Source of the DNA: an uncultured Bacteroidota bacterium | Lineage (GTDB): Bacteria; Bacteroidota; Bacteroidia; Chitinophagales; Chitinophagaceae | Direction: 5' to 3' | Length of the DNA stretch: 40,898 bases | Assembly: GCA_903831935.1 (NCBI GenBank) | Contig: CAIKZP010000055.1 | Span: 1-40,898, forward strand | Shown here: piece after piece, positions 14,641 to 39,857 of the stretch | Layout of the letters: each line of letters opens with the position of its first letter | Numbering within the stretch: the first letter of the stretch is position 1 | Translations under genes and position numbers: made by a program | Notes under the pieces: model-generated | Told to the model about the DNA's origin: nothing | The model's database searches: none | What the model saw: only the letters and a program-made list of their open reading frames with translations

Positions 14641-14681
14641 TGTATAATAATAAGGGGATAAAAAATAGGAATACTGAAACA

Positions 14682-14714
14682 CATCAACACAAAGCATTAT
14701 ACTTTGTGTTGATG
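14682..14714 (-). terminator. Hairpin between the TolB-like and giant surface-protein genes
   Basis: The perfect 13-base arms CATCAACACAAAG (14682-14694) and CTTTGTGTTGATG (14702-14714) surround a 7-base loop. On the minus strand it lies 70 bp after the stop of the TolB-like gene and just before the preferred start of the giant gene. It is not followed by a good U-tract in that direction, so it may be a weak terminator, an attenuator or a 5' stabilising stem. The upstream ATG at 14697 is in its loop, which argues against that start. Confidence 0.5.
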
Positions 14715-22254: not shown

Positions 22255-24189
22255 CTACTCACTTAATTTCCAAATTGTGCCTTTTTGTTGGCTATTATAT
22301 TTAATTAATACCTTTTTCTCAAATAAGTCTAATAACAAGGCTTCTGAAGCATCCATTTCTAAATCACTTAAAAATGAAAATTCTTTGGTTGTTAAGGTTG
22401 GATAGATTTTAAATAAATTTTCGTAGTCTTTTTTAATAGGTTTTTTCTTGGCTTTTGGTATTAATTGCAATAAAGCTTCTTCAAATTTTTTGTAGTCTTG
22501 AAATCCTTTTAATACAACTGAATGATCGTATTTATCCGCAAAAATAAAAGTTGGCAAACTCGTAATATCTAAACTTTTGGCTAATTCTAAATCGGCTTCA
22601 AAAAGCAATTGCGCCTTCCCTTCCAAGTCGCGCATTAATCTTGCAGCATCTAAACCTGCTTCGAATGCTGCTTTATGCAACAATACATTTTCAATTATAT
22701 TTTTACTATCTACAAATAGCATTTCATTGATTCTTCGCAAAAAAATGATTGCCTTGTCTATATCTTGCATTTGTGCTGCTTTAAAAGCAATTGATGGCGG
22801 ATAAGACGAAGGCAAAGGGTCTTCTAACCATACCGAAGAATTAATTGGCATATCATACTCTAATGCAACCTCATCCCAATATTTAGCAGCAGTTTCAGGA
22901 CTTGTGATAGGACCACTTTTGAAATTATTCCAAGAAGGCAAAAGCCCTCCCATACAATATTCAATTTCTAAATAGTCGCCATATTCTAATTTCAACTTGC
23001 GCAATTGTGGTTGAATTAACCAACAGGTAGAACAGATAGGATCTGTAAAATACAACAAGTGTACTTTTTTATATTTTGGCGCTAATTTGTTTTTTGATTC
23101 CTTGTGCGTAATTAGTGGAATTTCAATTTCATCTATCTGCGCTTTATTAGGATGTAGAAATGTTTGTTTAATTTTTCGGCCAAGTAATGTATGTTCTTCT
23201 ACAAATGGGGCTCTTTCTAAATAAAAATTAGTAAAGATTTTTTGTATATCATTTCCTGTAATAATTTTTTCAAATAATACTTTTGCATCAATTAATGCAT
23301 TGGTAGTTCCTGCACTTGTAAACGGCACAGCCAAGTGAGCAGCATCGCCTATTAGCACTACATTTTGCTTATGGAATGATGGCAATAAATCGAAGTCGGT
23401 TGTGTTCCAGATATAACTTGTAGCATAATCGTTTGCTTGAATAATTTCTTGAACTATTTCCGGAAAATCTTTCAATAATTCTAAACACAAAGCGCGCATA
23501 GAATTGGGTGTATCATTAACAAGTTCCATTAGTTTTACATCGTATTGCATAAACCAAACTAACTCTTCATTAGAAGTAGGAATGAAACCAAAAGAAAGCC
23601 CTTTTTCTTGACTTAAAAACTTAGTAAACTGGTGCGAATGGTTTTGCGCTACTGAAGGCAAACGAACAACACCAATAATTTCTTTCACTTCAATTGGCGT
23701 GAAATTTGTTTTTCCAAATAATGTGGTTCTAACTTTTGAATTAGATCCATCTGCACCTACAAATACATCGCCAAACTCAATATCACCATTGTTAAATACT
23801 GCAGCAATCACTTGTTCTTCTTCATATAAAAAATGAGAGAACACCCTACCTGATTTTATTTTGTTTGCAGGTAAAAGAGAATACAAATAATTAATTAAAT
23901 CCGGACGCTTAATACATTGCCAGGGATCTAATTTTAAATATTTCAGTGCAGTATCGTTAGGATCTTTTAAAATAAATGTGTCAATGAATTTGCCCGGCAA
24001 CTCTTTTACCGTTGAATAAGAGGAAAACATATCTAATACAGAAACCCCGTCGGAATGCATTAAAAAAGCATTGCCAATATTGGGCACTTTGGTTTCTTTT
24101 TCGTTAACACTTACCGAGTAGCCTTTTTTATGCAATAATATAGCCAATGCCATACCCCCAATGCCACCACCAATGATTACTATTTTCAT
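22255..24189 (-). CDS. FAD-dependent monooxygenase fused to DsbA-like thioredoxin-fold protein
   Basis: One 644-residue chain carries two activities. Residues 1 to about 340 are a group A flavoprotein monooxygenase (PHBH/UbiH type): dinucleotide-binding IVIIGGGIGGMALAILLHKK (G7-G12), VGADGSNSKVR (144-154) that contacts FAD and NAD(P)H, and LIGDAAHLAVPF (279-290) near the flavin ribityl chain. Residues from about 370 to about 600 match the DsbA/FrnE-like thioredoxin fold (DsbA_5, YjbH-like): LLYFTDPICSTCWLIQPQLR with Cys386 and Cys389, then YCMGGLLPSW, and the cis-Pro-type region ITSLPTFIF. The last 60 residues may be a small winged-helix-like tail. No frame break occurs. Its ATG overlaps the stop of the upstream aminotransferase gene (ATGA), so the two are translationally coupled. 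Substrate is unknown; this is a possible oxidation/redox partnership. Confidence 0.9.
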   Translation of the reverse strand: MKIVIIGGGIGGMALAILLHKKGYSVSVNEKETKVPNIGNAFLMHSDGVSVLDMFSSYSTVKELPGKFIDTFILKDPNDTALKYLKLDPWQCIKRPDLINYLYSLLPANKIKSGRVFSHFLYEEEQVIAAVFNNGDIEFGDVFVGADGSNSKVRTTLFGKTNFTPIEVKEIIGVVRLPSVAQNHSHQFTKFLSQEKGLSFGFIPTSNEELVWFMQYDVKLMELVNDTPNSMRALCLELLKDFPEIVQEIIQANDYATSYIWNTTDFDLLPSFHKQNVVLIGDAAHLAVPFTSAGTTNALIDAKVLFEKIITGNDIQKIFTNFYLERAPFVEEHTLLGRKIKQTFLHPNKAQIDEIEIPLITHKESKNKLAPKYKKVHLLYFTDPICSTCWLIQPQLRKLKLEYGDYLEIEYCMGGLLPSWNNFKSGPITSPETAAKYWDEVALEYDMPINSSVWLEDPLPSSYPPSIAFKAAQMQDIDKAIIFLRRINEMLFVDSKNIIENVLLHKAAFEAGLDAARLMRDLEGKAQLLFEADLELAKSLDITSLPTFIFADKYDHSVVLKGFQDYKKFEEALLQLIPKAKKKPIKKDYENLFKIYPTLTTKEFSFLSDLEMDASEALLLDLFEKKVLIKYNSQQKGTIWKLSE

Positions 24190-25553: not shown

Positions 25554-26438
25554 TTAAGACTTGTAATTCGTTAAAAACACCCCGCCCATAATTAGAATTG
25601 CAGCTGCAATTTTGGGTAAACTGAGGTTTTCGTTTAATAAAAGCATTGAAGCAATCGCTCCAAAAAAGGGTTGTGTATATGAAAAAGAACCTGTTACACT
25701 TGCCCCAAGTACCCTTATACTATAGTTCATCAATTGGTAAGCAAAAAAGGTTGCACCTAATATTACATACCCTAAACAGATCCAACTTAACAAATCGAAT
25801 TTAATCCATTGTACACTTGCTAAATCATGCCAACCAATTGGCAAAACAATAATTAATCCAAATAGAAATAACCATTGTAAAATATGATTGGCTTTGTATT
25901 TAAGCGCAAGTGGTTTTAAAGAAACAACATATGTTGCATAACTGATGGCACCCATTATTATAAAAACATCTCCTAAAGACTGTCGGCCTCCTGCTACCAT
26001 TGACAAATCTCTTGAAAAAATCAATAACACGCCACCTGAAATTCCTAAAAAAAAACCCACTATTTTAAATGGATTTAATCTTTCTTTTAAAAACCATGTA
26101 GCCAAAAAAGTAATAACAATAGGTGTTGTTAAAATGAGTAAAGATGCATGTATAGGACTAGTTAATGACATGCCGCGTATAGAAAAACTTTGGTTTAATG
26201 CTATTCCAGCAAGGGCGCATAGAACTAAACGTAGAAAATCTTTTTTTTCAAACCCCATTTTTACAGGATTAAAAGCATACATGCTCCAAAAAAGTAAAGC
26301 ACTAACTATAATTCTAACCATTGTTAATGCCATTGGAGGCAAAAATACTGGAGTGATATGCTTTACTGCAATTACACTAGTTCCAAAGAAAAAATTACCT
26401 AGTAATACTGCAGCGATTGCCTTGTTTTTTTGATTCAT
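25554..26438 (-). CDS. EamA/DMT-family membrane transporter
   Basis: A 294-residue, very hydrophobic protein with about ten transmembrane helices arranged as two EamA repeats (about 5-140 and 150-290), as in drug/metabolite transporters such as RhaT and YdcZ-type exporters. The N-terminal repeat begins AIAAVLLGNFFFGTSVIAVK and the second includes GDVFIIMGAISYATYVVSLK, with the conserved PIHASLLILTTPIVI region in between. It lies 115 bp upstream of the aminotransferase stretch in the same direction and behind a hairpin that follows the oxidoreductase gene, so it is probably its own unit. Substrate is not predictable; export of an amino acid or metabolite is common in this family. Confidence 0.9.
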   Translation of the reverse strand: MNQKNKAIAAVLLGNFFFGTSVIAVKHITPVFLPPMALTMVRIIVSALLFWSMYAFNPVKMGFEKKDFLRLVLCALAGIALNQSFSIRGMSLTSPIHASLLILTTPIVITFLATWFLKERLNPFKIVGFFLGISGGVLLIFSRDLSMVAGGRQSLGDVFIIMGAISYATYVVSLKPLALKYKANHILQWLFLFGLIIVLPIGWHDLASVQWIKFDLLSWICLGYVILGATFFAYQLMNYSIRVLGASVTGSFSYTQPFFGAIASMLLLNENLSLPKIAAAILIMGGVFLTNYKS

Positions 26439-26511: not shown

Positions 26512-27870
26512 TTAGTATTTAAATGCTTTCCCGTTGGCCATAATTTCTTGAGTGGCTTCGTCGAAAGTAACTTTAGCACCTGTATGAACAGCCGCATTAG
26601 TCATTATTGTTGCAATAGAATGGTTATAACCTGCTTCTACTGGTGCATTAGGTGTTTTTCTACTACGAATACAATCCATCCAGTTTTTAATATGCGCAGT
26701 TGTAAGTGCATCTCCCCCTGTATTTGCACCAGATTCAACTTTAACTTCTAAATCAGTTAAACTTAGTTCTGGCAATAAATTTGGTTGCATTTTCATTGCA
26801 GCAGCAGGACCAGCTTTCATGCCGCCTTTTGGTGAAACTTTATTGGTAATTAAATTCAATTCACCACCGTTAGAATAATATATTTCACTAGGACTATCGT
26901 CTCCATTATGCATACGAGAACTAAATACCACTTGAAAACCAGTTGTTAAATCATTGGCAGGACCATAATCAAAAACTGCAGTGATAGTATCCCAGTTTTT
27001 ACGACCATCTTTCCATTGATAAATGCCCCCATTAGCTGTAACACTACGTGGATGTTTTAAACCAGAGAACCAATGCACGGTATCAATTTGATGACTCATC
27101 CATTGACCTGGCAAACCTGAAGAATATGGCCAGAACAAACGGTATTCTAAGAATTTTCTAGGATCAAATGAATCTTTTGGTCTGTTTAATAAAAATCTAT
27201 TCCAGTCTAAATCTTCTTCTTTACACTGCGCTACTAAATCGGGTCTTCTCCAACGACCTGGTTGGTTTACATTCCAATTTAATTCAACCATAGTGATAGG
27301 ACCAAATTTTCCTGATTGTATAAAGTCTGCAGCTGCAGTATAATTAGGTCCGCTTCTGCGTTGAGAACCGATCTGTACAATTTGTTTTGACGCTTTAATA
27401 ATTTTTAAAGCATTACGATTGTCTTCCATGGTTTCTGCAAATGGTTTTTCGCAGTATACATCGCAACCTGCTTTTACTGCTTGTGCTGCATGAATAGCAT
27501 GTTGAAAATCTGGTGTACTTACAAAAACAGCATCTACCGATTTTGAATCAAACAACTCATCATTATTACGATAAGCCGTAATATCATGACCCATTTTTCC
27601 TTTTAAGAAAGCAGCACCTTCTTCTCTTCTTTTTTTCCAAATATCAGAAACGGCTACAATATCAAAATTCATTTCTTTGTAGTACTTCATAAATGGAGGA
27701 ATATGAGAACTACGGTGTCTGTCTGAAAAACCAACTACACCAACCCTTACGCGGTCGTTAGCACCTAAAATATTGGCATAACTTTTTGCGCTAAATCCTA
27801 CAGAAGCAATATAAGTTCCTGCTGCAGCTTTTGCTGATTGTTTGATAAAATTTCTTCTTGTGTTTGACAT
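26512..27870 (-). CDS. Gfo/Idh/MocA-family oxidoreductase with Tat signal
   Basis: From the ATG at 27870 this is 452 residues; a TTG nine bases further upstream is in frame but less likely. The N-terminus MSNTRRNFIKQSAKAAAGTY carries a twin-arginine signal with a following hydrophobic AS/VGFSAKSYA segment, so it is probably exported folded. The NAD(P)-binding fold (VRVGVVGFSDRHRSSHIPPF), the catalytic-region CEKPFAE (Lys of the EKP motif) and PWPYSSGLPGQWMSHQIDTVHWF are family hallmarks. The usual glycine motif is altered to GVVGFSDR. It lies 61 bp after uxaC in the same direction and ends the block before a terminator. In PULs such proteins oxidise or reduce sugars or act as redox-neutral glycoside-modifying enzymes; the substrate here is unknown. 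Confidence 0.92.
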   Translation of the reverse strand: MSNTRRNFIKQSAKAAAGTYIASVGFSAKSYANILGANDRVRVGVVGFSDRHRSSHIPPFMKYYKEMNFDIVAVSDIWKKRREEGAAFLKGKMGHDITAYRNNDELFDSKSVDAVFVSTPDFQHAIHAAQAVKAGCDVYCEKPFAETMEDNRNALKIIKASKQIVQIGSQRRSGPNYTAAADFIQSGKFGPITMVELNWNVNQPGRWRRPDLVAQCKEEDLDWNRFLLNRPKDSFDPRKFLEYRLFWPYSSGLPGQWMSHQIDTVHWFSGLKHPRSVTANGGIYQWKDGRKNWDTITAVFDYGPANDLTTGFQVVFSSRMHNGDDSPSEIYYSNGGELNLITNKVSPKGGMKAGPAAAMKMQPNLLPELSLTDLEVKVESGANTGGDALTTAHIKNWMDCIRSRKTPNAPVEAGYNHSIATIMTNAAVHTGAKVTFDEATQEIMANGKAFKY

Positions 27871-27930
27871 TTTTTTCAATCGTTAAATGTGAGAAATAAA
27901 ATAAATGGCTTTAAAAAATGAACCCAAATT

Positions 27931-29334
27931 TTATAAATTAAAATAGGATTTTGCATTGTAATAAGAAATATTTTTTAAAATATCTCCCATCCATTTTTCA
28001 TCATTTGGCAATAGTCCTTTTTCCATTTCATCGCCAATTAAATTACAGAGAATTCTTCTGAAATATTCATGCCTAGGAAAAGATAAAAAACTACGGCTAT
28101 CCGTAATCATGCCTATAAATGTACTAATTAAACCAATATTAGATAGTGCATTTAATTGTTTTTCCATTCCATCTTTTTGGTCTAAAAACCACCAGCCCGA
28201 TCCAAACTGCATTTTACCTTTAATACTACCATCATTAAAATTTCCTAACATACTCGCAAACACTTCATTCTCAGAAGGGTTGATATTATAAATGACTGTT
28301 TTGGCTAATTGATTCGATTGGTCTAAGCGATCAAAAAATAAAGACATTGCCAATGCTTGTGGAAAATCTCCAATGGAATCAAATCCTGCATTAGCCCCTA
28401 ATTTTTGATTTAATCGGGTATTATTATCTCTAATAGGACCCAAATGAAATTGTTGCACCCAGTCTCTTTGGTGGTACATGCGGCTTAATGCAAGTAACAC
28501 AAATCCCATAAATGATACTGGATCGGAAAATGGTTGGGTTTTATTTTGTAAGAAATTTTTAAACTCTATTTCTAATGCCAAACTAAAATTTAAACTAGCT
28601 GGCATTTGCATAAAGCCATGGTCTGAAACCCTGCAGCCATTTGCATGAAAATAGTCTACCCTATTTTCAATGGCTGAAAGCAAAGAAGCAATATCTGTTA
28701 CTTTAATACCACTAGCAGTTTCTAATGCCAAGAGGTAATGAAAAAAATCTGCTGTTTTATCTATGAATAAAATTTTATCGGGCCTAAATGAAGGCAATAC
28801 TTTAATGTCATAAGATTCATTGGCTAATTGTTGGTGATGTTCTAAACTATCCCAAGGCTCATCGGTAGTGCCTACATATTCTACCTTAAATTTAGAGAGC
28901 AACCCACGTGTGGTGAATGCTTCTGTTTTTAATAACTCATTAGCAGATTGATAGATACCAGCAGCAGTATGTTCATTTAAATATTCAGTTAAATTAAAAA
29001 CAGTTTTAAGCTCCATATGCGTCCAATGAAACAATGGATTTCGAACGGTTTGTGGCACAACTTTAGCCCATGCATGGAATTTTTCTTCGTCTGTTGCAGT
29101 GCCTGTAATAAAATGTTCTGAAACACCTAAACTACGTTGGGCACGCCATTTATAATGATCGCCTTTTAACCAGATTTCTGTAAGGTTTGCAAATTGCTTA
29201 TTACTAGCAATTTCATCTGGAGGAAGATGACAGTGATAATCAATAATAGGAAGCGTTTTAACATAATCGTGGTATAAACGCTTTGCAGTATTACTCTGCA
29301 ACAAAAAATCATCTGTCAAAAAAAAATGGCTCAT
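27931..29334 (-). CDS. uxaC: Glucuronate isomerase (uronate isomerase)
   Basis: A 467-residue amidohydrolase-fold enzyme that converts D-glucuronate to D-fructuronate (and D-galacturonate to D-tagaturonate). Length agrees with E. coli UxaC (about 470). The metal-binding motif is PIIDYHCHLPP (His34 and His36). Further family stretches are LTEIWLKGDHYKWRAQRSLG, HWTHMELKTVF, KVEYVGTTDEPWDSLEHHQQ and LTDSRSFLSFPRHEYFRRIL (seen as MITDSRSFLSFPRHEYFRRI). It starts 15 bp after the SDR oxidoreductase gene and forms an operon with it. Together with uxuA at the right edge it gives a complete glucuronate-to-KDG pathway. It acts in the cytoplasm. The assignment is secure. Confidence 0.97.
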   Translation of the reverse strand: MSHFFLTDDFLLQSNTAKRLYHDYVKTLPIIDYHCHLPPDEIASNKQFANLTEIWLKGDHYKWRAQRSLGVSEHFITGTATDEEKFHAWAKVVPQTVRNPLFHWTHMELKTVFNLTEYLNEHTAAGIYQSANELLKTEAFTTRGLLSKFKVEYVGTTDEPWDSLEHHQQLANESYDIKVLPSFRPDKILFIDKTADFFHYLLALETASGIKVTDIASLLSAIENRVDYFHANGCRVSDHGFMQMPASLNFSLALEIEFKNFLQNKTQPFSDPVSFMGFVLLALSRMYHQRDWVQQFHLGPIRDNNTRLNQKLGANAGFDSIGDFPQALAMSLFFDRLDQSNQLAKTVIYNINPSENEVFASMLGNFNDGSIKGKMQFGSGWWFLDQKDGMEKQLNALSNIGLISTFIGMITDSRSFLSFPRHEYFRRILCNLIGDEMEKGLLPNDEKWMGDILKNISYYNAKSYFNL

Positions 29335-29349
29335 GCTTTATTTTTTAAA

Positions 29350-30171
29350 TTATACCCCACTAAAAACAGTGAATCCACCATCAACACCTAATTGCATACC
29401 GGTTACAAACTTTGATGCATCACTTAATAAATAAACCAAGGCTCCAACTAATTCTTCTGGTTTGCCAAAACGTTTAAAGGGTGTGTTTTTTATAACGGAG
29501 TTTCCTCTATCGGTATAACTGCCATCTGGCTGCGTTAATAAGGTTCTATTTTGTTCGGTTAAAAAGAAACCAGGCATGATGGCATTTACACGAATAGCAT
29601 CGCCAAAACGATTAGCTACTTCTACCCCAAACCATTGCGTATAAATATCAACAGCTGCTTTACCCATACTATATCCTAGCACTTTGGTTACTACTTGCTT
29701 TGAACTTACAGATGAAATATTTACAATACTGCCAGATCCTTTTTGGGCCATTACTGAACCAAAAATTTGTGTAGGAATAATAGTGCCCCATAAATTTAAT
29801 ACCATGGCTCTTTTCATTCCATCAATATTCATATTAAAAATATCGGCATCTGGTTGTACTACTGCTTCTGGAATATTTCCGCCAGCAGCATTTACTAAGC
29901 CATCTATTTTGCCATATTTTTCTAAAATAATTTCTTTGGCTTTTAATAAGTCTGCTTCTTCTAATACATCTACTGCAATAAAAATAGCATCTCCGCCACT
30001 TGCATTTATTTCGTCGGCTCTTTCATTACCTACTGTACTATTTCTTCCTAAAATAACCACGGCGCCACCTGCATTAGCAATGCCTTTAACAAAGGCACCA
30101 CCTAAAATTCCAGTGCCCCCTGTTACGACTATCACCTTATTTTTTAAGGAGAATATATTTGTTGTATCCAT
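29350..30171 (-). CDS. uxuB: SDR-family D-mannonate oxidoreductase (fructuronate reductase)
   Basis: A 273-residue classical short-chain dehydrogenase. The dinucleotide motif TGGTGILGGAF (17-27), NAAGGN (94-99) and the catalytic Ser154, Tyr167 and Lys171 (ISSVS and YSMGK) are all present. The C-terminal FVTGMQLGVDGGFTVFSGV completes the fold. E. coli UxuB belongs to a different, larger family, but SDR proteins encoded beside uxaC/uxuA in Bacteroidota are widely taken to reduce D-fructuronate to D-mannonate. The function here rests on that genomic context, since the fold alone would fit many substrates. The gene lies 15 bp before uxaC. Its 102-bp leader carries a motif shared with the susC2 promoter region, so co-regulation with the PUL is likely. 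Confidence 0.8.
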   Translation of the reverse strand: MDTTNIFSLKNKVIVVTGGTGILGGAFVKGIANAGGAVVILGRNSTVGNERADEINASGGDAIFIAVDVLEEADLLKAKEIILEKYGKIDGLVNAAGGNIPEAVVQPDADIFNMNIDGMKRAMVLNLWGTIIPTQIFGSVMAQKGSGSIVNISSVSSKQVVTKVLGYSMGKAAVDIYTQWFGVEVANRFGDAIRVNAIMPGFFLTEQNRTLLTQPDGSYTDRGNSVIKNTPFKRFGKPEELVGALVYLLSDASKFVTGMQLGVDGGFTVFSGV

Positions 30172-30273: not shown

Positions 30274-30879
30274 TTATTCGGGAACCATCTCTACTCTTTT
30301 AATACTGCTAATTGGCACCAATAATTCTTTGCGTTTAACCATAAACACTAATGAACTATCTCTCTGTTTTAAGATAACACCTTTTACAATTATTTCATCA
30401 TTTAAACCGTACACTAACAATTGGGTTTTGTGTTCTATAAAATAAGTATACGCAGATCCTGTATGGCTCTCTACCACTGCCTCACGGGCTACAACACCTT
30501 TACCGTTTTTGGTGGTAATAACAATCACCCCAAATGCGCCTTGTGCGCCATAAGCCCCTGTAGATGCAGCATCTTTTAATACCGAAATACCCGCTACATC
30601 TTGTGGATTAATATTTGTAATGTCTCCACCATAAATACTTCCATCAATAACAAATAGTGGTGGTCTTTGATTCTTTAAACTAGTGGTGCCACGTATAGTA
30701 ATAGATCCCCCCGATTTATCGTTACTCAATTGAACTTCTAAACCCGGCACATCGCGCAACATTTCAAAAATAGTTTTGTAAGTGCCTTGTGTTAGGGTAT
30801 TTGCTTTTGCTTGTGCAAATACTTGACCTGAAAAACAAGTAAATGCTAATAATAAAACAAGGACTTGTAAACTTTTCAT
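30274..30879 (-). CDS. Orphan TonB plug-domain protein (no barrel)
   Basis: A 201-residue exported protein with a signal peptide (MKSLQVLVLLLAFTCFSGQ, cleavage near VFAQ). Residues about 35-130 look like the plug of a SusC-type transporter: SITIRGTTSLKNQRPPLFVI, INPQDVAGISVLKDAASTGA, then GAFGVIVITTKNGKG. The beta-barrel that always follows in a transporter is missing. Instead come about 70 residues (YFIEHKTQLLVYGLNDEIIV and RDSSLVFMVKRKELLVPISS) with the look of a small beta-barrel. It is too short to transport by itself. It starts 4 bp after the exported oxidoreductase gene and so is surely co-transcribed. A truncated susC remnant is possible, but the frame is open, has its own signal peptide and no barrel debris follows, so it looks like a maintained small gene. 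Confidence 0.85.
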   Translation of the reverse strand: MKSLQVLVLLLAFTCFSGQVFAQAKANTLTQGTYKTIFEMLRDVPGLEVQLSNDKSGGSITIRGTTSLKNQRPPLFVIDGSIYGGDITNINPQDVAGISVLKDAASTGAYGAQGAFGVIVITTKNGKGVVAREAVVESHTGSAYTYFIEHKTQLLVYGLNDEIIVKGVILKQRDSSLVFMVKRKELLVPISSIKRVEMVPE

Positions 30880-30883
30880 TTGT

Positions 30884-32233
30884 TTATTTTTTTGCAGCCA
30901 TTTTCTGTGCCTGCGTAGTGGTATAATACTTAGCCAACATATTCGGCACTTCCCAAGATGGCATATTGTGATTCAATAAATAATCTAAATACTTTTCTGT
31001 AACACGTGCAAAATGCGACTCATGCCCTTCTTTAAAAGATTCTGGAACAATCACTTCGTATCCTTTATCGTTCTTTTTTAAACTAACACCTTTATATTGT
31101 TCGCTAATAGTTGCAATAATTTGTTGCGCTGTTTTATCAAAATCAACAGATGCTACTAATGGCTCAATATATAAAGTTGGTTTGTATTGTTGTTCTGCAC
31201 CTTGGCGAATAATTAAATTGGCTTTGGTTCCACGCATAATAGAATAATGCGTATCTCCTGTGCCTGCTGGTGCTTTGTAATTCCAAATAACAGACACTTT
31301 TGCATGAACACCTTTAATAGTATAGTTAAACTCACCATTACTCAATACACTAATTTCATTATTTGCATTGGTGGTTGGTTTTAAATAACTAGGAATTTCA
31401 TTCAATTTAGTTAGTTCCGAAAACTGGTCTTTGGTAATAGTAGTGTTCCAACTTTTTGCATTATTAATAGTAATGTCTTTTTGATAATTGATAGTGGTGT
31501 TTGGAAAGCACTCCCATTGTACTAAATCAACCAAATGTGTTGTTACATCTACAATGCCTTCGCCTTCTTGCTTGGTATCTAAAAACCAGGCTGGACGCGT
31601 TAACACAGAACCAGAAACGTATTTATAAAAATGGTGTACACTTTCTTTTGTTACTGCAGGTTCGGCAACAGTTCCTTTTTGCAAGGTACCAAACAAGGCT
31701 GTTTGCATAGACAAAGCTCTTTGTAAAATGGTGGTGATTTCATAACGCTCAGTCATAATATCGTACAAGAGTAATTTGTTTTTTTGGGCAGTTGTAAATG
31801 CTTGTTTTAGTTTTACAAATCCAGATTCATCAATTACCATTGGCTTGTCTGAAAAAACATTGTAGCCAGACTGTATTGATTGTAAAATATAATCTGTTTT
31901 TAATTGATTGTTACCCGCAAGCACCACTACATTACCTTTTTTTTCTTGCAACATTTTAGTTAAATAATCATCTCCCTCATATACTTTTTCAATCCATTTT
32001 GTTGGCGCAACCGCAGCAGCATTATAGCCTTTTATTTTATCTAAATGTGCATTTAAATCTGATCCTTTTTTGGCATACACATATACCGTTGGATCTACTT
32101 GTGGATACATTGATTTTTGAACCAATGCCGCATGAAAGTGCCCAGGATCAAGGGTTATAATCTTTACTGGCTGCTGACTAAAGCTTTTTAAACAAATAAA
32201 CATAGCAACTAAAAAAAACTGACTGAAGCGCAT
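30884..32233 (-). CDS. Exported Gfo/Idh/MocA-like oxidoreductase
   Basis: A 449-residue protein with a Sec signal peptide (MRFSQFFLVAMFICLKSFSQ). The N-terminal Rossmann-like region begins PVKIITLDPGHFHAALVQKS, in which the usual GxGxxG is replaced by DPGHFHA. A later VVVLAGNNQLKTDYILQSIQ and VFSDKPMVID correspond to the family's substrate/cofactor-site segment, with DKP in place of EKP. The C-terminal half (PTLYIEPLVASVDFDKTAQQ) matches the putative oxidoreductase C-terminal domain seen in PUL-associated members. An exported dehydrogenase would need a tightly bound cofactor, or may have another function. It lies 4 bp upstream of the orphan-plug gene and 119 bp after the ThuA-domain gene. The substrate is unknown. 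Confidence 0.88.
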   Translation of the reverse strand: MRFSQFFLVAMFICLKSFSQQPVKIITLDPGHFHAALVQKSMYPQVDPTVYVYAKKGSDLNAHLDKIKGYNAAAVAPTKWIEKVYEGDDYLTKMLQEKKGNVVVLAGNNQLKTDYILQSIQSGYNVFSDKPMVIDESGFVKLKQAFTTAQKNKLLLYDIMTERYEITTILQRALSMQTALFGTLQKGTVAEPAVTKESVHHFYKYVSGSVLTRPAWFLDTKQEGEGIVDVTTHLVDLVQWECFPNTTINYQKDITINNAKSWNTTITKDQFSELTKLNEIPSYLKPTTNANNEISVLSNGEFNYTIKGVHAKVSVIWNYKAPAGTGDTHYSIMRGTKANLIIRQGAEQQYKPTLYIEPLVASVDFDKTAQQIIATISEQYKGVSLKKNDKGYEVIVPESFKEGHESHFARVTEKYLDYLLNHNMPSWEVPNMLAKYYTTTQAQKMAAKK

Positions 32234-32352: not shown

Positions 32353-33219
32353 TTACAAAGCATCATCCCTAGTAATGGCATGTGCTTTTGAATAATCTAA
32401 TCCTTTAAATTGATTGGCTATAAAACGTATTCCTTGTAATAAATGGTTTTTATAAACAGGATCTTGATAGCTTTCTTTGCTATGCCCTAATGCAGTTACC
32501 CAAATATTTCCACCATCAAATTGCTGGTACCAAACTGCTGGAAAATAGTTGGCATAAGATCCTGCATTTTTTTGAATCAAATCTGTTTGGCTAGGATTTA
32601 AACTACTTAGTTGGTGTGCCATTAATACTTTAATTCCTGGATACAATTCTTTGCCAAAATAGCATTCGTCTTCTCTCTCCCAAATTGCAGGAACCCCTTG
32701 CATAGATGGATGTGTATTGTCTAATTTTTTAATACTAAATTTTTGAAAAGTTGCATGCCATGAAAAAGTTTCTCCTAACATCATTTTAAACCATGTCCAA
32801 TTACGTTCTGTACCAGTTACAGAATGTACCCCTACAAAGCCGCCTCCTGCTTCTATATAACGTCTAAATTGAACGCGCTGATTGTCTGTATCAAACACAT
32901 CATTATTAGTGCTAGTAAATATTAAAAATTGGTAGTTTTTTAAATTCGTTTCGGTAAATACACTTGGATCATCTGAAACATCTACTGAAAAATGGTTTTC
33001 AACCCCCATTTCTTTAATACTTGCTACTGCCGATGCAATATTATCGTGCACATAACCTTTGCCATTTTTTGTGTATACAAGGACTTTGCTATTTTTTAGC
33101 TTGTCTTTTTCAAATACACCCGATTTTTTAAATTTATTAGGCGTATTTGCTAATAATTGAAATGAAAAATTCAAAAGAATCAATAAAACATAGATTGTTT
33201 TAATAACGGTTCTGTACAT
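32353..33219 (-). CDS. ThuA-domain (trehalose-utilization-type) protein
   Basis: A 288-residue exported protein of the ThuA superfamily, which has a class I glutamine-amidotransferase-like fold. After a signal peptide (IKTIYVLLILLNFSFQLLAN) the ThuA pattern is clear: SKVLVYTKNGKGYVHDNIASA, then YQFLIFTSTNNDVFDTDNQR, then YIEAGGGFVGVHSVTGTERNW, and GNIWVTALGHSKESYQDP towards the end. ThuA is found next to the Gfo/Idh/MocA dehydrogenase ThuB in rhizobial trehalose use through 3-keto sugars, and here too an exported Gfo/Idh/MocA gene follows 119 bp downstream. The biochemical role of ThuA proteins is not settled, though keto-sugar handling is a reasonable inference. It is divergent from susC2 across a 224-bp regulatory region. 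Confidence 0.9.
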   Translation of the reverse strand: MYRTVIKTIYVLLILLNFSFQLLANTPNKFKKSGVFEKDKLKNSKVLVYTKNGKGYVHDNIASAVASIKEMGVENHFSVDVSDDPSVFTETNLKNYQFLIFTSTNNDVFDTDNQRVQFRRYIEAGGGFVGVHSVTGTERNWTWFKMMLGETFSWHATFQKFSIKKLDNTHPSMQGVPAIWEREDECYFGKELYPGIKVLMAHQLSSLNPSQTDLIQKNAGSYANYFPAVWYQQFDGGNIWVTALGHSKESYQDPVYKNHLLQGIRFIANQFKGLDYSKAHAITRDDAL

Positions 33220-33443
33220 ATGGCAAGATTTTCAGTTTGAAAGTGGTCAATTTAGGGGAATTTATCTTGCGTAGTTCCTATTATTTACGAAAACAATTTC
33301 GTAAATTTTTTACACATTTTGCTAAATAACAGCCACTTATTCAATTATCTGCATTATTTTACTAAAAATTTAGTGCCATTCTTGTCGCATTTAAACGATT
33401 GATAGGCAAGAACGTATGGTACTATTTAAAAAACAATTGCCAT
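33220..33443. promoter_or_regulatory. Divergent promoter region of the uronate PUL
   Basis: This 224-bp non-coding stretch separates the leftward ThuA/oxidoreductase genes from the rightward susC2 gene. It contains a perfect inverted repeat (33283-33306) and an AAACGATTGA sequence at 33393-33402, the last nine bases of which recur upstream of the Tat-type oxidoreductase gene (27876-27884, minus strand). No strong match to TAnnTTTG stands out. Both arms of the locus are probably controlled here. Confidence 0.55.
33283..33306. promoter_or_regulatory. Inverted repeat ATTTACGAAA-N4-TTTCGTAAAT
   Basis: The two perfect 10-base arms (33283-33292 and 33297-33306) are separated by ACAA. It is an operator-sized dyad placed between the divergent ThuA and susC2 genes. 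One arm plus following bases recurs before uxuB. With only one GC pair per arm end and no U-tract it is not a terminator, so a regulator-binding site is the better reading. Confidence 0.5.
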
Positions 33444-36400
33444 ATGAGAAAAAAAACCAACGAACGCCATGTTCCTAAGGGATTCATGCGCTATTCGGTT
33501 TGTTTAATGCTTTGCCTATGCAGTATTGCACCGGCTCTACAAGCAAACAGTACCGAAAACAAATTAGTAGGCTTAAAAAATCTTCCGCCTGCTACTATTA
33601 CAGGAAAAGTTACCGATGCTAAATCGGCACCTTTAGAAGGTGTAACTGTTTTAATTAAAGGAACCAAGCGTGGTGTTACTACCAATGCGCAAGGAACTTT
33701 TACCATTAACAATGTTCCAGAAAATTCTATTTTGGTTTTTAGCTCTACTGGTTACACTAGTAAAGAAGTTTCAACAAAAGGAAACACCAATTTAACTGTT
33801 ACACTTGCCGAACAAGTTTCTGGCTTGAATGATATAGTAGTGGTTGGATATGGTACCAGAACTAAAAAAGATTTAACTGGTGCTGTTTCTCAAGTAAAAG
33901 CTACACAACTTGAAAACGAAAATCCAAAATCAGTTCAAGACATGTTAAGGGGTAATGCTCCTGGCTTGGATGTTGGTTTTGATGCAAGTACAAAAGGATC
34001 TAATGCTAGTTTACAAATTAGAGGTAAGGGAACCCTTACTGCTAGTTCTAGTCCATTGATTGTATTAGACGGAGTAATTTATCCTGGAGGCCTTGAAGAT
34101 ATTAACCCTAACGATATTGCCACTATAGATATCTTAAAAGACGCAAGTTCTGCTGCCGTATTTGGTGCAAGATCTGCTAATGGCGTTATTTTGATCTCTA
34201 CTAAAAAAGGTAAAGGCGGTAAACCCGTAATTACTTTTAATAGCAATATTGGATACAATAAAGTAGAAAACAAACCACATTTACTAGATGCTACAGAGTT
34301 CCTCGATTGGCGCCAAGATGTTAAATGGGCGATGGCCGGATTTGACTCTACTTCTAAACCAGGTGTTCAATATAAATTTTTAAATCCTAATAAACTTCCT
34401 TCTAGCATTTCAACAACACAATGGCTTGCGCTAGATGGCTCTGCTGGAGATTTAAATGCTGCTTGGTTAAACCGCTTGGGTTTAAAACCAGTAGAAATTG
34501 CCAATTATACTGCCAACACATTAATTGATTGGGAAAAAATCATCTACAACCAACAAGCAATGCAACACGATCATACCGTAAGCATTTCTCAACGTAAAGA
34601 AGATTATAACTATTATTTTTCTTTGGGATATTTAGAAAACCAAGGATTAACTGTTGGTGATAAATACAAAACTTTAAGAGCTCGCTTAAATTTAGAATCT
34701 GTTATTGCTAAATATTTAACCGTAGGTGCAAACTTTCAATTTTCAGAAAGAGATGAAAGTTCTGTACCTGTTGCTTTAGCTGATATGATACACACAACCC
34801 CTTATGGTTCTTATTATGCTACAGATGTAAACAATGTGCCTACCCTTCCACTCACACTTAGGAATAGCCCTAATGACGATCCGGGAAACAACACACATCC
34901 GTTTATGACCCAAGCTTATACCGATAGAATGTATAAGTACGATAATATCTTTTCTACTATTTATGTAAAAGGCACATTGCCTCTAGGATTTTCTTACCAA
35001 GTAAACTTCTCGCCTCGTTTTGATGTGTTGCGTGAATTCAACCACCAATCAGCTTTAAACCCAACTATTGCTGGTAAAAAAGGTGTGGTGGATAGAAGAA
35101 ACCAAACTGTTTATTCTTGGCAGTTAGATAACGTATTGCGTTGGAATAAAAAGTTTGGCAAACATTCAATTGAAGCAACCTTCTTAGTGAATGCAGAGAA
35201 ATTCCAATCTTGGAATACCAATATTCACGCAGAAAGTTTTGCACCTAACGATAACTTGAGTTTCAATGCCCTTCAGTCTGCAACACAAACACCTATTGTA
35301 TCTAGTGACGACCAATATTCAACAGCTGATGCCTTGATGGGTCGTATCAACTACAACTATAACCAACGTTATTTTTTAACGCTAACAGAAAGACGTGATG
35401 GTTATTCTGCTTTTGGTCAACAAAACCCAAGAGCTAATTTCCCTTCTGCTGCTATTGCATGGGCTTTGAGTGAAGAGAAATTCATGAAAGGCACTGAAAA
35501 ATGGCTAGACTATGCAAAAGCTAGGGTTTCTTATGGAGAAAATGGTAATAGAGAAATTGGTAGATATGCCGCATTGTCGAACTTATCTTCTGGTACTTAT
35601 ACCTATGTTACTTCTGGTGGTGCTGCTTACAACGTAGCACAAGTTTCTTCGAGCAATTTATCTAACCCTGGTTTGAAATGGGAAAGAAATAGTTCTATCA
35701 ACGCAGGTATCGACTACTCTATTTTTAAAGGAATTGTTACCGGTTCAATTGATTACTATTCTAGGGTTACCAAAGATTTGTTGGTTAACAGAACATTACC
35801 TACAGTTACTGGTTTCACTAGTATTCTTGCCAACTTAGGTGAAGTTCAAAACAATGGTTTAGAATTTAGTTTCAATACCAACAATATCAAAAACAAAAAT
35901 TTAGAGTGGAGATCAACTATTTCATTTTGGTTGAACCGCAATAAAATTAACCATCTTTACGGACCAACACCTGATTTTGATGCTGCTGGAAAACAAATTG
36001 GTGTATCTGAAAAAGATGACGTTGCAAATGGATGGTTTATTGGAAAGCCAATACAAACAATCTATAACTATAATGTAGTAGGTGTTTGGCAAACTGCAGA
36101 TGCTGCTTTGGCTAAAACATTTGGTTATAAACCAGGTGATTTTAGATTACAAGATACCAATGGAGATGGTACTTATACTATTGCCGATAAACAATTTATT
36201 GGTAATACTACTCCAGACTTTTCTTGGAATTTACGTAACGAATTTAAGATCTATAAAAACTTCGACTTCTCATTTACATTGTATGCTAAAATGGGTCAGT
36301 TAACCAATTTCGACGAAGCTAAAAACGTAGATAATTTCTATGATCGCTCTCAGTTTTATCAACGTCCTTATTGGACTCCATCAAACCCAATTAATGACTA

Positions 36401-36674
36401 TGCTGCAATGATGTCTAATGCAGGTGGTGGTGTTTCTTGGAACGTATATAGAAGTTCTACTTTTATAAGACTTAGCAATATTAGTTTGGGATATACTATT
36501 CCAACTGAATTAGCTAAAAAATGGAAAATTGATGGTTTAAAAACCTATATTAATGTTGTAAACGCTGCAGTATTTTCTAACTGGAAATATTTTGATCCAG
36601 AAAATAAAGGATCTAATGTTGGCGGCGGCCCAACTCCTTACACCATTAATTTTGGTATAAACCTTACCTTATAA
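33444..36674 (+). CDS. SusC-like TonB-dependent outer-membrane transporter 2
   Basis: From the ATG at 33444 it has 1076 residues; an in-frame TTG at 33399 would add 15 but is a poor start. A signal peptide (RYSVCLMLCLCSIAPALQAN) leads into a CarboxypepD_reg-like domain (ATITGKVTDAKSAPLEGVTV), the TonB-box region DIVVVGYGTRTKKDLTGAVS, and a plug with LQIRGKGTLTASSSPLIVLD and ILKDASSAAVFGARSANGVI. The barrel ends TPYTINFGINLTL. With the SusD-like protein 23 bp downstream it would import the oligosaccharide used by this locus. The presence of GH88, uxaC, uxuA and uxuB genes suggests that it carries uronic acid. Sequence features are those of a complete SusC and no defects are seen. Confidence 0.95.
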   Translation: MRKKTNERHVPKGFMRYSVCLMLCLCSIAPALQANSTENKLVGLKNLPPATITGKVTDAKSAPLEGVTVLIKGTKRGVTTNAQGTFTINNVPENSILVFSSTGYTSKEVSTKGNTNLTVTLAEQVSGLNDIVVVGYGTRTKKDLTGAVSQVKATQLENENPKSVQDMLRGNAPGLDVGFDASTKGSNASLQIRGKGTLTASSSPLIVLDGVIYPGGLEDINPNDIATIDILKDASSAAVFGARSANGVILISTKKGKGGKPVITFNSNIGYNKVENKPHLLDATEFLDWRQDVKWAMAGFDSTSKPGVQYKFLNPNKLPSSISTTQWLALDGSAGDLNAAWLNRLGLKPVEIANYTANTLIDWEKIIYNQQAMQHDHTVSISQRKEDYNYYFSLGYLENQGLTVGDKYKTLRARLNLESVIAKYLTVGANFQFSERDESSVPVALADMIHTTPYGSYYATDVNNVPTLPLTLRNSPNDDPGNNTHPFMTQAYTDRMYKYDNIFSTIYVKGTLPLGFSYQVNFSPRFDVLREFNHQSALNPTIAGKKGVVDRRNQTVYSWQLDNVLRWNKKFGKHSIEATFLVNAEKFQSWNTNIHAESFAPNDNLSFNALQSATQTPIVSSDDQYSTADALMGRINYNYNQRYFLTLTERRDGYSAFGQQNPRANFPSAAIAWALSEEKFMKGTEKWLDYAKARVSYGENGNREIGRYAALSNLSSGTYTYVTSGGAAYNVAQVSSSNLSNPGLKWERNSSINAGIDYSIFKGIVTGSIDYYSRVTKDLLVNRTLPTVTGFTSILANLGEVQNNGLEFSFNTNNIKNKNLEWRSTISFWLNRNKINHLYGPTPDFDAAGKQIGVSEKDDVANGWFIGKPIQTIYNYNVVGVWQTADAALAKTFGYKPGDFRLQDTNGDGTYTIADKQFIGNTTPDFSWNLRNEFKIYKNFDFSFTLYAKMGQLTNFDEAKNVDNFYDRSQFYQRPYWTPSNPINDYAAMMSNAGGGVSWNVYRSSTFIRLSNISLGYTIPTELAKKWKIDGLKTYINVVNAAVFSNWKYFDPENKGSNVGGGPTPYTINFGINLTL

Positions 36675-36697: not shown

Positions 36698-38545
36698 ATG
36701 AACAAAAATATTAAATACACTAGCCTACTTGCCATCATACTACTGTGTGTGATGAGTTTAGAGAGCTGTAAACAAGACTGGTTAACGCCGAAGCCCTTGT
36801 CGATTTATTCACCTGAAAATACCTATGTAGATATTGCAGGTTTTAAAGCCGGCCTTGCAGGTTGTGCCCTTAACTTAAGAGCAGAATTTTATGGTGATGG
36901 TTCGCCTATTATTACTGAATTAATTTTCTCTGAAATTTCTGTAGAAGGAACCGATGACAAGACGGGTCCTGCGCAAAACATGGATTTGCAAATTAAACCA
37001 GATGCTAATTTAAACAGTGCAGATTTTAATAGAATTGGTTGGTATTGGATACAAGAATACAAAGGTATTCGTATGGCTAACACCATTATTTCTAGATTAC
37101 CAACGGCTACTGCAATTTCTGATGCCGATAAAAACATTTTGATGGGTCAGGCCTATTTTTATCGTGCATTTGACTACTATCGTTTAACCAATCAATTTGG
37201 TGACGTTCCTTGTCCTACTAAAGAAATCACTACGGCTAAAGTTGATTTTACCACCGTAAAACGTGCTGTAATTTTAACTAGAATGAAACAAGATTTAGAA
37301 ACTGCTGTTAAATATGTTCCTTGGGTTACCGATAAAGGTGATGTAAACAGAGGTGCTTGTTACCATTTGTTAACCAAAATTAATTTGGCCCTTGGTTTAT
37401 TTGACGATGCTATTGCTTCTTCATCTGCTGTAATTAATGCTGGTACATTTAAATTAATGACTGCACGTTTTGGTGTTAATGCATCTGATGCAACAAAAAA
37501 CATTACTTGGGATTTACACCGTCCTGAAAATAAAGCCGCTGCTGCTAATACAGAAGGTTTGTTCTTGGTAACTGATCGTTTAGGCACACCAAGTGCATGG
37601 ACAGACGGAACACCAGGTATGCGTATTATGCGTCAAACTGCACCAGGTGTTTCAATTGGTACGACCATTTTAACCCCTATGGGTAAAACAGGTATGGTGG
37701 CAACTGCTCAACCAGTAAATGATATGATGAACATTTATGGTAGAGGTATTGGACGTTGTAGAAATACATCTTACCACTATTGGGAAATTTGGGATGATAC
37801 AAAAGATTTCCGTCACGACTCAACTTCTGGCAACTGGATGTATCCTCAAAAAATGGTCTACAACAACCCAGCTTTAAAAGGTGTTGATACTGCTTTTGGT
37901 ATGAGACTTAGATTGTATGGACCAACAGGAACACTACTATGCGAAGATACTTTGCGTCGTTGGTATCCTTGGCCGCATTACAAAGTTTATGTTCCTGATA
38001 CAGAGAATGTACCTATGCAAGGTGGTCACTCCGATTGGTATGTATTCCGTTTAGCTGAAACATATTTATTACGTGCTGAAGCCTATGTTTGGAAAGGCGA
38101 TCAAGCTAGTGCTATGGCTGATTTAAACGCAGTTAGAACTAGGGCTGGTTGTTCTCCTTATACAAATGCTGGTGCAATTACCATTGCTTCTATCTTAGAC
38201 GAAAGAGCACGTGAATTGTATTGGGAAGAGCCTCGTAAAACTGAGTTAACTAGAATTGCTTACATCTTTGCTTCTACAGGTAAAGCATATAATGGCAAAA
38301 CTTATACTTTAGCAAATTTCTCTACTTCTAATTTTATGATTGATCGTATTTTAGAGAAGAATATTTTCTATAAAACCAATTTTGTTACTGTTCACGCAGA
38401 CCAATTTAGAATAAGTCAATACCACGTTTTATGGCCTATTCCTCAGGATGCTATTTTGGCAAACCCTGATGGACATATTAACCAAAACATTGGTTATTCT
38501 GGATCGGCAACCAATGTACCTGCTTCGGATAAAATTGTTGAATAA
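36698..38545 (+). CDS. SusD/RagB-like surface glycan-binding lipoprotein 2
   Basis: A 615-residue lipoprotein with lipobox LLCVMSLESC (Cys24 lipidated), followed by KQDWLTPKPL. SusD features are GQAYFYRAFDYYRLTNQFGD (about 150-170), YVFRLAETYLLRAEAYVWKG with the helix that packs on SusC, DLNAVRTRAGC, ILDERARELYWEEPRKTELT, and the closing YHVLWPIPQDAILANPDGHI. It starts 23 bp after susC2 and the pair is ended by the hairpin at 38572-38610. It would bind the glycan on the cell surface and hand it to SusC2; a uronic-acid-containing substrate is inferred from the neighbours, not from this protein. Confidence 0.95.
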   Translation: MNKNIKYTSLLAIILLCVMSLESCKQDWLTPKPLSIYSPENTYVDIAGFKAGLAGCALNLRAEFYGDGSPIITELIFSEISVEGTDDKTGPAQNMDLQIKPDANLNSADFNRIGWYWIQEYKGIRMANTIISRLPTATAISDADKNILMGQAYFYRAFDYYRLTNQFGDVPCPTKEITTAKVDFTTVKRAVILTRMKQDLETAVKYVPWVTDKGDVNRGACYHLLTKINLALGLFDDAIASSSAVINAGTFKLMTARFGVNASDATKNITWDLHRPENKAAAANTEGLFLVTDRLGTPSAWTDGTPGMRIMRQTAPGVSIGTTILTPMGKTGMVATAQPVNDMMNIYGRGIGRCRNTSYHYWEIWDDTKDFRHDSTSGNWMYPQKMVYNNPALKGVDTAFGMRLRLYGPTGTLLCEDTLRRWYPWPHYKVYVPDTENVPMQGGHSDWYVFRLAETYLLRAEAYVWKGDQASAMADLNAVRTRAGCSPYTNAGAITIASILDERARELYWEEPRKTELTRIAYIFASTGKAYNGKTYTLANFSTSNFMIDRILEKNIFYKTNFVTVHADQFRISQYHVLWPIPQDAILANPDGHINQNIGYSGSATNVPASDKIVE

Positions 38546-38663: not shown

Positions 38664-39857
38664 ATGAATAATAGAATCAAACTACCACTTTTTTTTACTG
38701 TTTTGATGTTTTCATTATTTGGTATCGCTCAACCAAAACCCAAAGCAGACCTTTTAAAAATTGTTGACAATGCATTAATTGGTGCTAGCAACCAATACAA
38801 GTTTTTAATGACCCAAGTGCCTGCTGGCGTTTTACCAAAAACTTATTTAGCTACCAAAAAATTAGAAACGTCTAGTTCTACTTGGTGGACAAGTGGATTT
38901 TATCCTGGCTCCTTATTGTATTTAAATGAAAATGCAAATGATGCTGCTATTTTAAAAGAAGCTTTAAGCCGTCAAAGTTTATTAACCAAAGAACAATTCA
39001 ACAAAGGCACACACGATTTAGGCTTTATGATGTTTTGCAGTTTTGGCAACTCAAACAGATTAGCCCCTTCAAAAGAATACAATGAAATTTTAATGAATAG
39101 TGCCAAATCATTAGCAAGCAGATTTAATCCTATTACAGGTTGTATTAAATCTTGGGATCATGGCTCTTGGAAATTTCCAGTTATTATTGACAATATGATG
39201 AACCTTGAATTATTATTTTGGGCTACCAAAAATTCAGGTGATTCTTCTTATTATAAAATTGCCGTAACGCATGCAAATACTACCCTTAAAAACCATTATC
39301 GCGAAGACCATAGTTCGTTCCATGTTGTTGACTACGATCCTACAAATGGTAATGTTTTAATCAGACAAACACACCAAGGATATTCCGATCCTTCTGCTTG
39401 GGCACGTGGTCAAGCATGGGGTTTGTATGGTTATACAGTGATGTATCGCGCTACAAAAGATAAAAAATATTTAAAGCAAGCAAATGACATTGCGCAATTC
39501 ATGATTAACCATCCTAGTGTTCCTGCCGATAAAATATTTTATTGGGATTTTAACACGCCTGACATTCCTGCAACCTACCGAGATGCTTCTGCAGCAGCTA
39601 TTACAGCATCTGCCTTATTAGAATTATGCAAGTATACCGACGCAAAAACTAGTGCTGTTTATTTTGCTTTTTCTGAACAAGTTATTCGTGCATTAGCGTC
39701 TAAAACTTATACTGCTCCAATTGGTACAAATGGTGGTTTTATTTTAAAACATAGTGTTGGAAATTTACCAAGCAATTCAGAAGTAGACACACCACTTACC
39801 TATGCAGACTATTATTATATTGAAGCGATGATGCGCTATAAAGCCATGGCTAAATAA
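38664..39857 (+). CDS. GH88 unsaturated glucuronyl hydrolase
   Basis: A 397-residue exported enzyme (signal peptide NRIKLPLFFTVLMFSLFGIA, ending near AQ) of glycoside hydrolase family 88. GH88 enzymes hydrate the 4,5-double bond of the terminal unsaturated uronic acid on lyase products, releasing it as 5-keto-4-deoxyuronate. Family motifs are STWWTSGFYPGSLLYL, KGTHDLGFMMFCSFGN with Asp118, FPVIIDNMMNLELLFWA with Asp176 (the two expected catalytic acids), PSAWARGQAWGLYGYTVMYR and DTPLTYADYYYIEAMMRY. Length is typical. Presence of this enzyme means the substrate has been cut by a polysaccharide lyase, which is not in the window. It has its own likely promoter after the terminator and continues into uxuA after 38 bp. 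Unsaturated galacturonyl substrates (GH105-like) cannot be excluded, but GH88 fits best. Confidence 0.92.
   Translation: MNNRIKLPLFFTVLMFSLFGIAQPKPKADLLKIVDNALIGASNQYKFLMTQVPAGVLPKTYLATKKLETSSSTWWTSGFYPGSLLYLNENANDAAILKEALSRQSLLTKEQFNKGTHDLGFMMFCSFGNSNRLAPSKEYNEILMNSAKSLASRFNPITGCIKSWDHGSWKFPVIIDNMMNLELLFWATKNSGDSSYYKIAVTHANTTLKNHYREDHSSFHVVDYDPTNGNVLIRQTHQGYSDPSAWARGQAWGLYGYTVMYRATKDKKYLKQANDIAQFMINHPSVPADKIFYWDFNTPDIPATYRDASAAAITASALLELCKYTDAKTSAVYFAFSEQVIRALASKTYTAPIGTNGGFILKHSVGNLPSNSEVDTPLTYADYYYIEAMMRYKAMAK

Follow-up and report, generated by a model that had tools for sequence, protein, structure and literature searches.

The window analysed here is a stretch of 40,898 nucleotides (positions 1 to 40,898 of contig CAIKZP010000055.1, assembly GCA_903831935.1) from an uncultured Bacteroidota bacterium of the family Chitinophagaceae. 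It carries a locus for glycan import, periplasmic oxidation and uronate breakdown, within which lies a short gene for a protein composed of a signal peptide, a SusC-type plug domain and a C-terminal module with a predicted Sm-like fold (the plug-Sm protein). The features are as follows.

25554..26438, minus strand: EamA-type transporter (named by eye; conserved in the locus)
26512..27879, minus strand: GfoA, Gfo/Idh/MocA oxidoreductase (Pfam; Tat-like signal by eye)
27931..29334, minus strand: UxaC, glucuronate isomerase (profile matches)
29350..30171, minus strand: SDR, D-mannonate oxidoreductase subfamily (NF006132, above cut-off)
30274..30879, minus strand: plug-Sm protein, 201 aa (open reading frame, Pfam, SusC model and 20-copy alignment)
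30277..30465, minus strand: predicted C-terminal Sm/Hfq-like small barrel, residues 139-201 of the plug-Sm protein (predicted structure)
30499..30771, minus strand: plug domain core, SusC-type, residues 37-127 of the plug-Sm protein (Pfam, SusC model, conservation and predicted structure)
30814..30879, minus strand: signal peptide, residues 1-22 of the plug-Sm protein (by eye)
30884..32233, minus strand: GfoB, Gfo/Idh/MocA oxidoreductase with a PF16490 C-terminal domain (Pfam; signal peptide by eye)
32353..33219, minus strand: ThuA-domain protein (PF06283; Pfam; signal peptide by eye)
33399..36674, plus strand: SusC2, a complete SusC including plug and TonB-box-like motif (Pfam, SusC model and motif)
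36698..38545, plus strand: SusD2 (named by eye and position)
38664..39857, plus strand: GH88-like hydrolase (PF07470, 20.3 bits, under the gathering score of 26.6)

Elsewhere on the minus strand, the window encodes a 644-aa protein (22255-24189) that by eye combines a FAD-dependent monooxygenase-like part with a DsbA-like thioredoxin part (CSTC motif); a 783-aa protein (18478-20829) that looks by eye like a TonB receptor and has, according to Pfam, CarboxypepD_reg domains at its N-terminus and no Plug; and a 2164-aa repeat protein (8203-14697) whose C-terminal tail resembles, by eye, a type IX sorting signal.

Plug (PF07715) is the sole Pfam domain of the plug-Sm protein (residues 25-118, E = 6.3e-12, 46.4 bits against a cut-off of 23.9), and the same kind of search found no M56 protease domain in it. 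The SusC model TIGR04056 matches residues 25-127, equivalent to model positions 102-207 of 981 only, with a score of 96.8 bits that lies under the family cut-off of 368.25; the single PHROGs match is to a family of unknown function (phrog_5687, residues 27-128, E = 3.7e-5). At the predicted A-Q cleavage site, Q23 is found in 95% of 20 copies, and about 14 residues lie between this site and the plug core. The C-terminal module spans residues about 131-201, with a linker at about 128-138 and the folded part at 139-201. These results, together with the alignment, bear out the first-pass annotation's description of an exported, plug-only SusC-like protein of 201 residues with a C-terminal module and no barrel, and the gap of 4 bases from the preceding, signal-peptide-bearing Gfo/Idh/MocA gene is likewise confirmed; the next gene downstream on the minus strand, SDR, is 102 bases away. 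Homologues do not regain a barrel in a corrected frame, since the open reading frame stops after the common small module, with no beta-barrel following the plug, in 20 of 20 intact copies; a frame error concealing a barrel is thereby ruled out. A split transporter is also ruled out, because SusC2 retains its own plug.

The 20 intact copies come from 19 genomes (the window's included), share a common length and layout, and align over their full length; the other 19 are 41-65% identical to the window's protein. The gene was found in 15 of 101 genomes of the same genus, and in 5 of 294 genomes drawn from the family and 7 of 396 drawn from the order (the two draws overlap), all in the same two genera. 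Public contigs, searched with one genome per species, yielded seven matching loci (L049-L055, E = 1e-32 or better), all from metagenome assemblies of Chitinophagaceae or Bacteroidota and some of them, by length, the same contigs as genomes of the 101-genome search; the next match was a SusC-type plug at E = 1e-18. Two further copies were left out of all alignments: that of L055, which is cut by the contig end, and that of G036 (L142, 864-1199), which is interrupted by in-frame stops, decay and assembly error being indistinguishable here. One genome (G083; L141, 16756-18033) carries the plug-Sm gene as a tandem pair separated by 45 bases. The short plug reading frames (<350 aa) in 73 external loci all run to the locus end, and none was counted; among 31 plug matches at E < 1e-4 in the window's own genome, the query is the only open frame of <300 aa.

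The plug-Sm protein is kept intact by purifying selection, in both halves, in a group of Chitinophagaceae. Nonsynonymous change is less frequent than synonymous change (pN < pS) in all 190 pairs of the 20 copies, and dN/dS is far from the value near 1 expected of an unconstrained gene: its median is 0.14 (0.06-0.35) over the 60 pairs with finite dS, dS being saturated in the other 130, and the closest pair gives about 0.08. Taken separately, the plug has a median of 0.12 and the C-terminal part one of 0.21, with 66 finite-dS pairs in either case. It is therefore hardly credible that the gene is a functionless relic of a broken SusC gene; the one copy with in-frame stops would fit such a history, but the constraint on the 20 intact copies contradicts it, and the conserved C-terminal domain is not found at that place in SusC proteins.

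An AlphaFold2 model of the full protein, made with a 20-row alignment, has a mean pLDDT of 80 and a pTM of 0.49; the plug half is of medium confidence, and block means for residues 151-200 are 91-95. The C-terminal half is predicted to consist of a helix (143-149) followed by five strands, and the module folded alone reached a mean pLDDT of 90 and a pTM of 0.75. One alignment of the C-terminal part (A2) took in 16 of the 20 sequences. The best 50 of 969 Foldseek matches to the full model are all TonB-dependent transporters or Hfq chains; in a structure search with the same model, Hfq chains cover residues about 138-201 with Z up to 11.0. With the module alone, the best 50 Foldseek matches comprise 49 Hfq chains and one designed small barrel (E of 0.001 or below in only 2 cases), and the best 50 VIA-align matches all have Z of 9.4 or more and titles that name Hfq, among them Caulobacter Hfq (6gwk_A, Z 10.7, rmsd 1.9, 61 residues).

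In sequence, the module has no similarity to E. coli Hfq, and none of the 20 members matches the Hfq profile PF17209 in a Pfam search taken to E = 10. Pfam Hfq scored over its cut-off in none of the 101 genus genomes (the window's own included) and in 5 of 14 control genomes. Pfam matched the module to the RimP C-terminal SH3 domain in 3 of 20 members and to Sm_like in 1 (best E 0.04-0.06), and to nothing in the window's own; a PDB profile search with the module returned 5 matches, the best at E = 0.95. The Lys-His pair of the Hfq RNA site presumably falls on non-conserved module positions, on the assumption that the aligned ranges can be read without a shift. Its kinship with Hfq may extend to the fold alone, and the best name for the module is a small barrel that is exported and predicted to fold like Sm proteins.

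A profile of the module, searched against 395 genomes, recovered the full protein in 3 and gave 5 weak matches (E 0.003-0.009, about chance level). Two of these, in G170 and G417, are small signal-peptide-bearing proteins whose profile match is real; the remaining three, judged from lists of open reading frames, are unconvincing. The G417 protein as query found matches in 4 of 247 genomes, G417 and G170 included. An hhalign comparison of the module with the small exported proteins of these two genomes gave a probability of 90% and 33% identity over 46 columns; its score of 38 compares with a maximum of 19 for 100 column-shuffled versions and at most 17 for 21 other proteins of the window. Two related proteins of this kind (L205 and L240), each a signal-peptide-bearing small barrel with a glycine-rich hydrophobic stretch, lie close together in one genome.

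The plug half matches SusC proteins in structure (6z9a_B, Z 9.8, rmsd 2.9 over 101 residues). We defined 34 SusC-typical positions as those conserved at >=70% in 63 SusC plugs, 43 from other genomes and 20 from the window's own. The plug-Sm family keeps 25 of them, including R63 (invariant in the family), D79, G111, G117 and K124. The other nine differ: three involve short deletions or their alignment, one is V for I, and the remaining five are SusC-typical residues that the family has lost (E96, A108, R113, N116 and K127), with SusC2 itself also departing from the pattern at 96. These nine changes, R113, N116 and K127 among them, argue against the usual seating of such a plug in a barrel.

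It had been proposed that the free plug might bind TonB. A TonB-box-like motif, found in 19 of 19 SusC2 relatives, is present in 0 of 20 plug-Sm copies, so that binding by the usual route appears unlikely and TonB binding via such a box is not borne out, as far as this crude motif can tell; the search is specific rather than sensitive, with 12 of the set's 29 other proteins scoring positive. An exported plug fold with neither TonB box nor barrel is itself incapable of transport.

The same annotation had also raised the prospect that the protein gates or caps SusC2. In such a role the plug domain would enter or cover the periplasmic mouth of the importer. The retained SusC-typical positions and the invariant R63 are in keeping with this, and so are the scores against the plug-family profile, where SusC2 relatives reach 83-104 bits and other SusC proteins of the genome up to 84; SusC proteins of other genomes, however, reach 94. 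A precedent is the Plug of the type IX secretion system (T9SS), a separate protein that closes the very large outer-membrane barrel SprA (PMC7463736). Yet SusC2 already bears its own plug, R113 and N116 are lost from the candidate cap, and SusC2 occurs in 10 of 23 genomes without any plug-Sm protein. We regard a free cap as improbable. Nor is an origin of the plug family from SusC2 claimed. A tree with own-genome paralogues only placed the family and SusC2 together against 26 others, but a wider tree with 43 further SusC plugs does not resolve the family's position (support 15/0); in the plug tree the plug-Sm family is its own group on a long stem. Both trees exclude three rows of the window's genome (L018, L026 and L030), and for the wider tree six more long-branch rows were dropped, with 10 of 19 SusC2 rows and 43 of 96 external rows retained.

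Across relatives, the commonest gene order is ThuA, GfoB, plug, SDR, UxaC, GfoA and EamA, with SusC2, SusD2 and the GH88-like gene divergent; some loci have a 3-keto-disaccharide hydrolase between UxaC and GfoA (PF06439, tested in two). In 18 of 20 copies the plug gene starts at -20 to +10 bases relative to the stop of the gene before it, and in the other two at 45-46 bases. That gene is GfoB in 15 of 20; ThuA takes this place in 3, and a different Gfo gene and the first of two plug copies do so in 1 each. GfoB is missing from the loci of G004, G006, G048 and G070, where other genes follow the plug (another Gfo-type oxidoreductase in the two tested); both genomes of the second genus have a UxuA mannonate dehydratase next after the plug, and the locus of G035 has neither GfoB nor plug. 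The first-pass annotation had tied production of the protein to the adjoining Gfo gene. That holds insofar as GfoB usually stands directly upstream; it does not hold as an exclusive link, given the copies that follow ThuA and the three plug genomes with no GfoB match. The plug gene starts close behind whatever gene precedes it, not behind GfoB alone.

Among the 15 plug-bearing genomes of the genus (of 101), ThuA is present in 14, SusC2 in 13 and any GfoB match in 12, one of the last (G070) being a 51% relative in another locus. ThuA and SusC2 are both absent from G083 (53% complete), where the contig ends after GfoB, and SusC2 is absent from G036, where it ends at ThuA; each of these contigs stops short of the place expected for SusC2. 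Outside the 101 genomes, SusC2 neighbours the plug gene in G187 and G239; G348 has none there and a 57% identical SusC2 on another contig. Fisher tests give p of 1e-8 to 3e-11, values uncorrected for kinship and for the shared gene cluster, and co-occurrence within one gene cluster partly reflects shared inheritance. ThuA and SusC2 are the steadiest companions of the plug gene by a small margin, on a handful of genomes. Neither needs it: the 10 of 23 genomes with SusC2 and no plug protein include at least three on short contigs, ThuA lacks it in 7 of 21, and both are present without it in G010, G016, G035, G040 and G066 (in G010, a 58% GfoB, a 55% ThuA and a 64% SusC2 lie in three separate loci). 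The plug protein is an optional part of the locus.

These patterns bear on whether the protein serves only as a scaffold for the periplasmic oxidoreductases and ThuA, making no contact with the importer. In 16 of 20 copies the plug gene comes directly after a Gfo gene, in 3 after ThuA; this position, like the frequency with which ThuA and GfoB accompany it, would suit such a role. GfoB is nevertheless dispensable: G004, G006 and G048 have plug, SusC2 and ThuA and no GfoB match, while of the four genomes with a GfoB match and no plug (G010, G063, G085 and G092), the last three also show no orthologue of ThuA or SusC2 (leaving aside a 31% SusC in G092; G085 is 86% complete and its contig ends just past GfoB). 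The evidence against GfoB leaves ThuA as a candidate partner, and we consider a scaffold of enzymes alone unlikely.

Our leading reading, which is tentative and could well prove wrong, is that the two domains of the plug-Sm protein make it an adaptor, exported and most likely periplasmic, for a single SusC2/SusD2 locus of glycan uptake and periplasmic sugar oxidation. The plug half would act as a binding surface, which might either mimic a portion of SusC2's plug on the periplasmic side of the importer or hold one of the locus's periplasmic enzymes, ThuA or a Gfo oxidoreductase; the Sm-like barrel might assemble several copies or dock onto a partner; and the two halves together would gather the periplasmic steps of the locus close to the importer. 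An adaptor fits best with a protein that keeps most of the plug core, has lost several SusC-typical residues and carries a predicted fold that often makes rings, though Sm-type folds are not always ring-forming. Counting against this reading are the genomes in which SusC2 and ThuA occur without the plug protein, the nine changed plug positions, and the finding that GfoB accompanies the plug nearly as often as SusC2 does (12 versus 13 of 15), a difference so small that the choice of partner gene rests on few genomes. The more specific proposal, that the Sm-like domain forms an Hfq-like periplasmic ring displaying several SusC-type plugs, which dock on SusC2 importers or periplasmic enzymes, seems to us improbable.

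A different kind of partner is conceivable in two membrane proteases of the M56 (BlaR1-like) type that this genome also encodes, each with two barrel-less plug stretches (Pfam): a free plug might bind these repeats and so report uptake. The M56-plug genes are on other contigs, though, and plug-to-plug binding would be pure conjecture, which makes this signalling role very unlikely.

With the plug-Sm protein one can ask directly if a plug fold functions in glycan uptake when no barrel surrounds it. Plug domains that lack a barrel are readily dismissed as fragments; this one is short, constrained, signal-bearing, tied to one importer locus and joined to a second domain whose predicted fold is clear. 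Rings of the Sm-like part, if they form, would put the Sm fold to work beyond the cytoplasm, in scaffolding nutrient uptake. Judged from titles, searches of one open-access library yielded no description of free plug proteins or of the Sm fold in use as rings outside the cytoplasm, and such a plug protein is not mentioned in the available portions of PMC12611786, PMC11697453 and PMC11501099.

Among known systems, the SusC/RagA TonB-dependent transporters (TIGR04056) share with the plug-Sm protein the plug fold and most of the conserved plug positions; the plug-Sm protein differs in having no N-terminal extension, TonB-box-like motif or barrel. With Hfq and Sm-like proteins it has in common the helix-plus-five-strands fold of residues 139-201, as predicted by the model; unlike Hfq, it bears a signal peptide, which argues against a cytoplasmic role like that of Hfq, and its sequence is dissimilar to that of the E. 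coli protein. The exported small-barrel proteins of Bacteroidota (L205, L206 and L240) resemble its module at the identity given above; by eye, their barrel comes right after the signal peptide and is followed by the glycine-rich hydrophobic stretch, with no plug. The T9SS Plug (SprA partner, 6H3J) is likewise a separate protein, one that closes an outer-membrane barrel; it belongs to a different system and is missing from the 12 phmmer hits (E up to 1) and from the best 50 of 969 Foldseek matches. Barrel-less plugs as such are not new, since the M56 proteases of the same genome have plug repeats. Both of these genes (L026 on C48 and L030 on C149) are cut at the locus end, and L030 also encodes an N-acetylmuramoyl-L-alanine amidase domain. 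The M56-plug proteins are membrane proteins that combine a protease domain with two plug stretches; the plug-Sm protein has one plug and, by Pfam, no protease domain.
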